From Bacillus solitudinis (GTDB lineage Bacteria; Bacillota; Bacilli; Bacillales; Bacillaceae_D), in contig NZ_KZ454943.1 in the NCBI RefSeq assembly GCF_002797395.1, forward strand, positions 3,571,966-3,635,965: 64,000 bases of DNA. Direction: 5' to 3'. The notes under the pieces are model-generated. The model was not told the DNA's origin, ran no database searches, and saw only the letters and a list, made by a program, of their open reading frames with translations. Positions 17,629-61,526 of this stretch are shown one piece after another. The position numbers and the translations under genes are program-made. The number at the start of each line of letters is the position of its first letter. Positions within the stretch are counted from its first letter, which is position 1.

Positions 17629-17656
17629 GAGGCTACTCAATAAGTTTGTTTTGCGA

Positions 17657-17827
17657 CGCCACTGAAAAAGTCCCTTTTAGCGGATTCGAGGAAGAAGCAA
17701 TGGAGCCACATGTTGCGCGTTGGTTACGAGAAACCATTCATAGCAAGTTTAAGATAAAGCAACGGTTCCGCTCATTGCTTAAAGGCCATTGAAAAAGGTG
17801 AAAATCTTACCTTTTTCAGTGGCCTTT
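17657..17827 (+). repeat. Dispersed repeat copy 1 (about 170 bp, inverted relative to copy 2)
   Basis: This segment is repeated in opposite orientation at 61242-61415. The two ends are well conserved and the middle is diverged. The outer ends are complementary: GCCACTGAAAAAG on the left and CTTTTTCAGTGGC on the right. The right part (17781-17827) is itself a nearly perfect 19-bp hairpin followed by T-rich sequence, so it can act as a terminator between kapB and the convergent PucR-type gene. It carries no ORF. It looks like a small non-autonomous mobile or palindromic repeat element. Confidence 0.75.
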
Positions 17828-17887
17828 GTTTCTATAAAGAGGTTTCCGATCGCAGGCGCGCCATGCATGGGGTCTTTGCAGCTTTTT

Positions 17888-27960: not shown

Positions 27961-27995
27961 CTTGGCAATGTTGTGTACACACAATCATCCCAATG

Positions 27996-28176
27996 CGTAA
28001 GATAGCCCCCCATATAGCTAATGCTATATGACAGTCCTGCACTTATTAAGTCACAGTCCCAACTAAAGGTATATGAGTTAGTCTTTAGTTTCGGCAAATC
28101 CCCCTTTTAGGACGCTTCAAAAGAGCTCATACTCCTCCACGAACTTACTAATGGCATTTGCACCTCTACCCTCACT
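27996..28176 (-). ncRNA. Lysine riboswitch (L-box) aptamer
   Basis: Read on the minus strand, the leader contains the conserved L-box blocks in the right order: GGTAGAGGTGCAAATGCC, AGTAAGTTCGTGGAGGAG, GAAGCGTCC followed by GGGGGATTTGCCGAAAC, TTTAGTTGGGACTGTGAC, GGACTGTCATATAGC and GGGGGGCTATC. The first and last blocks pair to close P1. A perfect terminator follows. Lysine binding stabilises P1, leaving the terminator free to form and stopping dapA transcription. Confidence 0.9.
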
Positions 28177-49437: not shown

Positions 49438-49447
49438 ATCAAAATTT

Positions 49448-49501
49448 TATATTATGAAAAAAAGGAGTCTCAAGTTGAGGCTCCTTCTTTTCATAATATA
49501 A
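49448..49501. terminator. Long terminator hairpin
   Basis: TATATTATGAAAA ... AAGGAGTCTCAA and TTGAGGCTCCTT ... TTTTCATAATATA make an extended, almost perfect stem of about 24 bp. Confidence 0.8.
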
Positions 49502-49647
49502 ATTCACATGCATCTGCTAGCATTCAAGCACATCTTCACTATCCGAATTATTAGTTTAAGTATATGTGAATAAAAAACAATTTTGCAAGAATTGAGAAAT
49601 TCGTATAATGTAAAGGATATAGTAGTTAACTTGAAAGGAAGAATTGG

Positions 49648-60367: not shown

Positions 60368-61203
60368 ATGGGTGATTTAACAAACTGTGTAACACTAAAC
60401 AATGGAGTGACTATGCCGAGAGTAGGACTTGGGGTATTCCAGGTTGAAGAAGGCGAAGCAGTTGTGGCTTCAGTTAAAGCTGCTCTAGAATTTGGCTATC
60501 GAAGCATTGATACAGCTGCGATATATGGGAATGAAGAAGGAGTAGGTCAAGCAATTGCAGAATCGGGGATTCCACGAGAGGATCTTTTCATAACAACAAA
60601 ACTGTGGAATTCTGAGCAAGGTTATGATACTACATTAGCTGCATTTGAAGAGAGTATGAAGAAATTAGGTTTAGAATATCTTGATTTATATTTGATTCAT
60701 TGGCCAGTCCCTAGTAAAAATGAATATAAGAATACATGGAAGGCATTTGAGAAGCTTTATAATGATGGAAAAATTCGGGCGATTGGGGTAAGTAATTTTA
60801 AAATCCATCACCTTGAGGACCTAATGAGCGATTGTGAAATTAAGCCGATGGTTAATCAAGTTGAGTACCATCCACGTTTAACACAAAAAGAGCTTCATGC
60901 ATTCTGTAAAGAGAATCAAATTCAGTTAGAAGCATGGTCGCCATTAATGCAGGGGGGCTTCTCGAGGATCCGACGCTAGTTGAAATCGCTAAAAAGTACA
61001 ATAAATCAACAGCCCAAGTTATTTTGCGTTGGGATTATCAAAATGAGGTTGTCACGATTCCTAAATCGGTTAAAGCGCATCGTATTGCTGAAAATGCAGA
61101 TATCTTTGACTTCACCTTAACAGAAAATGACATCGAACAAATTGATGCCTTGAATCAAGATAAACGGATTGGTCCAGATCCAGATGAATTTAATCGTGCA
61201 TAA
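60368..61203 (+). pseudogene. Aldo/keto reductase (YtbE/YvgN-like), frameshifted
   Basis: The first frame codes for residues 1-203 with [45 protein letters not shown] and [14 protein letters not shown], and reaches [10 protein letters not shown] before running into SRIRR and a stop at 60979. The next frame continues at once with [30 protein letters not shown] and the normal C-terminus to 61203. Adding one G to the six-G run at 60952-60957 restores MQGGLLEDP and a full-length reductase of about 278 residues. Either the gene is broken or one G was lost in sequencing. Confidence 0.82.
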
Positions 61204-61241
61204 TAGTATGAAAATGGTCAGAAAAAGCCCTGAACATTTTG

Positions 61242-61415
61242 AAGGCCACTGAAAAAGGTATGATTTTCACCTTTTTTCAATGGCCTTTAAGCAATGAGTA
61301 CAGACGTCGCCTTCTTTTAAGTCCGTTATGAGCGGGTTTCTCATAGCGGGCGCGCGACGATCGGAGCCATTGCTGCTTCCTCGAATCTGCTAAAAGGGAC
61401 TTTTTCAGCGGCCTT
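61242..61415 (-). repeat. Dispersed repeat copy 2 (about 174 bp)
   Basis: The inverted copy of the repeat at 17657-17827. Read on the minus strand it runs AAGGCCGCTGAAAAAG, TCCCTTTTAGCAGATTCGAG, a diverged middle, then CTCATTGCTTAAAGGCCATT and a hairpin ending CTTTTTCAGTGGCCTT. The hairpin (61242-61288) follows the reductase gene. No ORF. The middle has more GC than the flanks. Confidence 0.75.
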
Positions 61416-61526
61416 CCATTTTGTTCCTTCTGAATAAGGTAGGGAACGGTTGTACTAATTGGGATAAAGTGGTAAAAATGAAAGAATGGTAAAATTAAAA
61501 TTTAATTTTTAAAAGGATGTGAAAGA

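Follow-up and report, generated by a model that had tools for sequence, protein, structure and literature searches.

The two inverted repeats in the 64,000-nucleotide stretch of Bacillus solitudinis DNA analysed here (the window) are very probably two copies of an insertion sequence-derived MITE of about 172 bp, moved in trans by IS1182-family DDE transposases that prefer hairpins. Many copies of the family have entered pre-existing terminator hairpins at the loop, a point that goes beyond the earlier note on this DNA.

The pair makes up the three longest inverted matches of the window in a repeat search (78 nt, 81%; 66 nt, 74%; 35 nt, 97%), and copy 1 as a BLAST query matches copy 2 at 80% identity (E 1e-36), so the inverted pair that the earlier note described was recovered by both routes. 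It had located both copies and missed their limits by a few bases. The exact limits, set by aligning the family and by the target duplications, are 17655-17826 (+ strand, 172 bp) for copy 1 and 61242-61415 (- strand, 174 bp) for copy 2. Copy 1, recognised by family HMM and BLAST and delimited by its ends GACGCCACTGAAAAA...TTTTTCAGTGGCCTT, is flanked by convergent genes. Its left terminal inverted repeat is GACGCCACTGAAAAAGTC (17655-17672, +), bases 4-19 being those of the right end of an Evansella vedderi IS1182 element. The strong hairpin claimed for one end is present in both copies, at 17782-17826 (+) in copy 1, where it is seen in the RNA fold, is terminator-like in a consensus scan and has pairing conserved with compensatory changes, and at 61242-61289 (-) in copy 2, where the sequence forms helices 1-2 of a 44-copy alignment. 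The flanks of copy 1, TGTTTTGC (17647-17654, +) and TGTTTCTA (17827-17834, +), match at 5/8 positions and are at most a decayed target duplication, not significant by itself. Copy 2 has an aldo/keto reductase gene on one side and a VOC/glyoxalase-type gene on the other; its left terminal inverted repeat is the minus-strand AAGGCCGCTGAAAAAGTC (61398-61415, -), and its central stem-loop, GTCCGTTATGAG...CTCATAGCGGGC (61321-61351, -), is helix 5 of the same alignment. It is bordered by a target duplication of 7/8 identity, ACATTTTG (61234-61241, +) and CCATTTTG (61416-61423, +), and its flanks, once joined, read GAAC-ATTTT-GTTC, which forms a short hairpin whose loop is covered by the duplication. 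Folding stability relative to shuffled sequences gave z values of -5.7 for copy 1 and -4.0 for copy 2. The aldo/keto reductase gene (window 60368-61203) is read as two overlapping frames (203 + 89 aa), a single frame of about 283 aa in relatives, and the split is either a frameshift or an assembly error. The window also holds a very long hairpin unrelated to the MITE family, a 28-bp 93% inverted repeat with arms 1 nt apart (49446-49502).

Two copies only, with none in relatives, was the outcome that the earlier note had named beforehand as counting against a mobile family. The element occupies at least 40, and about 45, places in its own 4.68-Mb genome (56 BLAST pieces), and relatives hold many more, with 43 BLAST matches in the congener Halalkalibacter urbisdiaboli FJAT-45385. 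Exact matches to the end motif GGSCACTGAAAAA number 82 in the own genome and 162 in H. urbisdiaboli, the reversed control giving 1 and 0. The family hosts, a group of alkali-loving bacilli, comprise six named Halalkalibacter species, E. vedderi, Alkalihalobacillus deserti, Bacillus suaedae and Bacillus sp. JCM 19034; the plasmid and phage collections gave no match to the family. A viral match (L164) and several MAG matches were rejected as members, having the hairpin motif alone without a family match. Literature searches found no published account of this MITE family.

The unit, about 172 bp long with ends GAGGCCACTGAAAAA...TTTTTCAGTGGCCTC, is described here with its hairpin last. Behind the left end GAGGCCACTGAAAAA comes sequence that varies between lineages, and then a long stem whose two arms enclose a central stem-loop (CCTGCTATGAG...CTCATAGCAGG); a 45-bp hairpin closes the unit. 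In the element at large, as in copy 1, the right inverted repeat forms the outer arm of this hairpin and a third copy of the end motif its inner arm. The element is short and non-coding with inverted ends (172-174 bp, 15-bp ends, no transposase ORF). Head-to-tail arrays of partial family units were seen at L138 (5567-6031), L119 (5252-5640) and L071 (2565-3025). At L017, in the own genome, the loop resembles the end of the IS3/IS150-type element that is found in the repeat's hairpin in H. urbisdiaboli (below), TGAACTGCACCC, and is possibly a scar.

To call the centre diverged, as had been done, is too simple, since additional stems there are maintained between species, with compensatory changes. 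In the alignment, which covers 44 copies and at least eight species, standard pairs fill 95% of stem cells and 13/37 stem pairs have changed on both sides, against a shuffled mean of 4.2 and with 0/500 shuffles as high. This conservation across species, together with the strong bias towards gene 3' ends, is what favours an immobile origin, as a structured regulatory RNA or terminator family that selection on the RNA has maintained and multiplied. Such an origin is nevertheless highly unlikely in view of the target duplications, nested insertions and empty orthologous sites described below. Subfamilies are moreover species-specific, four E. vedderi copies being 98% alike and only about 64-77% alike to those of other species, and some subfamilies are young. 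In inverted-repeat DNA, pairing can persist through template switching or shared ancestry. The covariation thus shows conserved palindromy and is by itself no proof of RNA function, because the copies are related and one arm can be corrected from the other. A window scan against Rfam placed no family at the gathering threshold on either copy; the window's sole Rfam match is a lysine riboswitch (27995-28176, -, 106 bits).

Mobility is read most directly from the flanks. With element ends placed at GAGG...CCTC, 55 full copies have 16 perfect 8-bp and 8 perfect 9-bp duplications, compared with 0.4 and 0.1 when flanks are shuffled, and none of any other length; once more loci were added, perfect duplications were found at 67 distinct insertions. 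The copy-2 site is present without the element in the syntenic gap of H. urbisdiaboli. At the copy-1 site H. urbisdiaboli has a different, shorter copy, and more distant relatives lack the element, several of them showing an ordinary hairpin between convergent genes. The central stem is in other copies a recurrent insertion site, with nested insertions at L013, L019, L033, L041 and L045. A non-autonomous mobile repeat, as the earlier note proposed, is therefore well founded: the family has many copies with terminal inverted repeats and 8-9 bp target duplications, some insertions are nested, the copy-2 site is filled here and empty in the congener, and there is no coding capacity. Small intergenic palindromes lying 3' of genes in tandem and nested groups also recall REP/BIME elements, which are moved as single strands by a REP-associated HUH tyrosine transposase and leave no target duplication. 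An origin of this type is exceedingly improbable here, being contradicted by the 8-9 bp duplications and by terminal inverted repeats shared with an insertion sequence whose transposase is of the DDE type.

That insertion sequence emerged from a scan of E. vedderi for end motifs: one pair, separated by 1.7 kb, flanks the gene for an IS1182-family transposase of 493 aa (element L225; NF033551, 351 bits against a cut-off of 270; Pfam DUF772 and DDE_Tnp_1_6). The element has ends like those of the MITE with a 9-bp duplication, GAAAAGCAA, outside them, and at its left outer border a partial family hairpin precedes the IS proper. Comparable IS1182 elements are found in H. okhensis (ends GAGACCGGTGAAAAA, duplication GATCCGTCC), at a second E. 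vedderi locus (ends GAGACCACTGAAAAA, 7/9 duplication) and in a related genus (ends GAGGCCACTGAAAAA, duplication CACGCACAT), and in H. wakoensis a decayed IS1182 gene adjoins GAGGCCACTGAAAAAGCCC. Similarity between MITE and IS is confined to the terminal 16-19 bp, and the cores differ. Because they have the same kind of ends and 9-bp duplications, IS1182-family insertion sequences are the likely mobilisers of the MITE, acting in trans. The MITE thus shares its ends with an autonomous element by way of relatives' IS1182 elements and not its own genome, where no intact IS1182 gene with MITE-type ends was found; cross-mobilisation there, perhaps in the past, is for that reason inferred from the relatives. 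Other candidates were set aside. End pairs 1.5 kb apart at two H. urbisdiaboli loci are IS3/IS150-type insertions within the end hairpin, near its loop (L046 578-2096, L047 611-2131). IS256 (PF00872) and ISL3 (PF01610) transposase loci in relatives are without MITE ends, and the other end pairs 0.6-4.5 kb apart that were inspected have ordinary host genes between them or lack a long ORF there.

The choice of target can be examined by rebuilding the empty site, that is, by joining the flanks and keeping one duplication. In many rebuilt sites the duplication forms the loop of a hairpin, for example GGAAAACACCTGG-TATCTTCTA-CCAGGTGTTTTCC at L085, AAAAGAGCTCA-GATTTATC-AGAGCTCTTTT at L066 and, for the H. 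okhensis IS, AGAAGCAAGA-GATCCGTCC-CCTTGCTTCT. A stem of at least 8 bp with the duplication in its loop was found at 12/53 non-nested sites, against 1.1 (maximum 4) with shuffled flanks. When loops of up to 25 nt were allowed, the count was 15; shuffled flanks gave 3.2, and positions moved away by 60-150 bp gave 1.8. By the strict test, more than half of the datable sites have no clear hairpin. Another 14 insertions are nested, having entered hairpins of the family itself or sequence matching its model. A natural comparison is provided by pgi, where all eight relatives with a readable 3' end have a hairpin directly behind the stop codon, in most cases with a T run after it. In H. urbisdiaboli this terminator is split at its loop, ACGGTGACTTATAAAGG-TGAAAAATA preceding the element and GAAAAATA-CCCTTTATGAGTTACCGT following it, with GAAAAATA duplicated. 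Hairpin targeting looks general in the IS1182 family, because in related genera the borders of other IS1182 subgroups both carry a repeat of an entire terminator hairpin of about 20-25 bp, such as AGCAGCTGAATTATTCAGCTGCT (L357, L368, L376, L377, L380 and L383). At L070, L316, L319, L109, L225 and L362 the flanks show that the insertions entered a different repeat of the Bacillaceae, CCTGCGGG...CCCGCAGG, seemingly in the space that separates its inverted arms.

With neighbouring genes called by a crude ORF caller, the claim that the copies sit 3' of genes extends to the whole family, which faces 179 gene 3' ends at a median of 64 bp and 127 5' ends at a median of 173 bp. Copies lie in 44 convergent and 18 divergent gaps, against a background of 101 and 94. 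It is unlikely that insertion occurs anywhere and that survival near gene ends alone produced this distribution, with the terminator association a by-product of selection. Only 1/175 copies lies within an ORF, and selection against gene disruption must also act, but survival alone gives no reason for the duplication to be centred on the loop, where controls give 1-3 sites against the 12-15 observed. Other IS1182 subgroups, moreover, have entire terminator hairpins repeated on either side. In co-directional gaps the hairpin is the last part to be read in 62 cases and the first in 29, a soft figure since a solo hairpin cannot truly be oriented. The element itself may plausibly act as a terminator; the suggestion that the pair may double as terminators suits copy 1, whose end hairpin scores as terminator-like, and not copy 2, whose end hairpin does not.

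Hairpins of about 43 bp, consisting of two ends back to back, are also widespread. Among 42 of these solo hairpins there are 5 perfect 8-bp and 3 perfect 9-bp duplications, compared with about 0.1 each, and they may be either self-moving or remnants of deletion. There is perhaps an even chance that they are remnants of full copies, comparable to solo LTRs and not mobile units, formed by recombination between the left end and the inner arm of the hairpin, which are direct repeats. This route agrees exactly with the geometry and would leave the outer target duplications in place. Against it, L079 in E. vedderi begins with the inner-arm variant GAGACC beside an 8/9 duplication, a single case that favours direct movement. 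The fuller proposal, which combines shape-guided loop insertion and spread of the MITE via intrinsic terminators with a bare 43-bp two-end palindrome as a self-sufficient mobile unit, is accordingly put forward only tentatively and is rather doubtful as a whole.

For the MITE itself, movement in trans by hairpin-preferring IS1182 transposases suggests the following scheme. The DDE transposase would recognise the GAGGCCACTGAAAAA ends and, preferring hairpin-forming DNA, would join the element across the loop with a stagger of 8-9 bp, so that the loop, sometimes with adjacent stem bases, becomes the target duplication. We infer that the extruded hairpin itself may be what is recognised. Many target hairpins being intrinsic terminators, copies would accumulate right behind genes, where they do little harm, and loop targeting would explain the build-up of such repeats 3' of genes. 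The hairpins carried by each copy would offer fresh targets, giving nested copies, and may take over termination. This suggests that terminators are safe landing sites whose function is perhaps replaced by the incoming element. To our knowledge, few DDE elements have been reported to choose their targets by DNA shape.

Several known systems share parts of this behaviour. The prokaryotic MITEs RUP, BOX and SPRITE of Streptococcus pneumoniae, the last resembling a rho-independent terminator, are like the present family short and gene-less, with terminal repeats, high copy number and nested clusters, but IS1182 goes unmentioned in the review of such elements (PMC10969869), and in the parts of it drawn on here none is described as entering terminator loops. 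Nor do those parts, or the IS1182-family papers (PMC5678879, PMC4923244) as far as they are used here, describe an IS1182 MITE. Insertion sequences aimed at REP palindromes (IS3, IS110, IS4, IS256 and IS5; PMC1525189) are likewise mobile DNA directed to extragenic palindromes, but they hit one repeat family, whereas the targets here are hairpins of unrelated sequence. The closest parallel is IS1272/TnSha1, an IS1182-family system of staphylococci in which hairpins are targeted but deleted, with no target duplication (PMC5678879, PMC4923244). Both systems have an IS1182-family transposase and hairpin targets of varied sequence, some of them reused. In contrast to that stem-loop replacement, both hairpin arms are kept here, the loop is duplicated over 8-9 bp and the moved unit is a gene-less MITE; a loop-duplicating outcome appears in PMC5678879 as a drawn alternative only, the hypothetical pathway c. 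Dozens of independent insertions with intact footprints allow this geometry of a duplicated loop between retained arms to be read directly and compared with that of the stem-loop-deleting IS1272.
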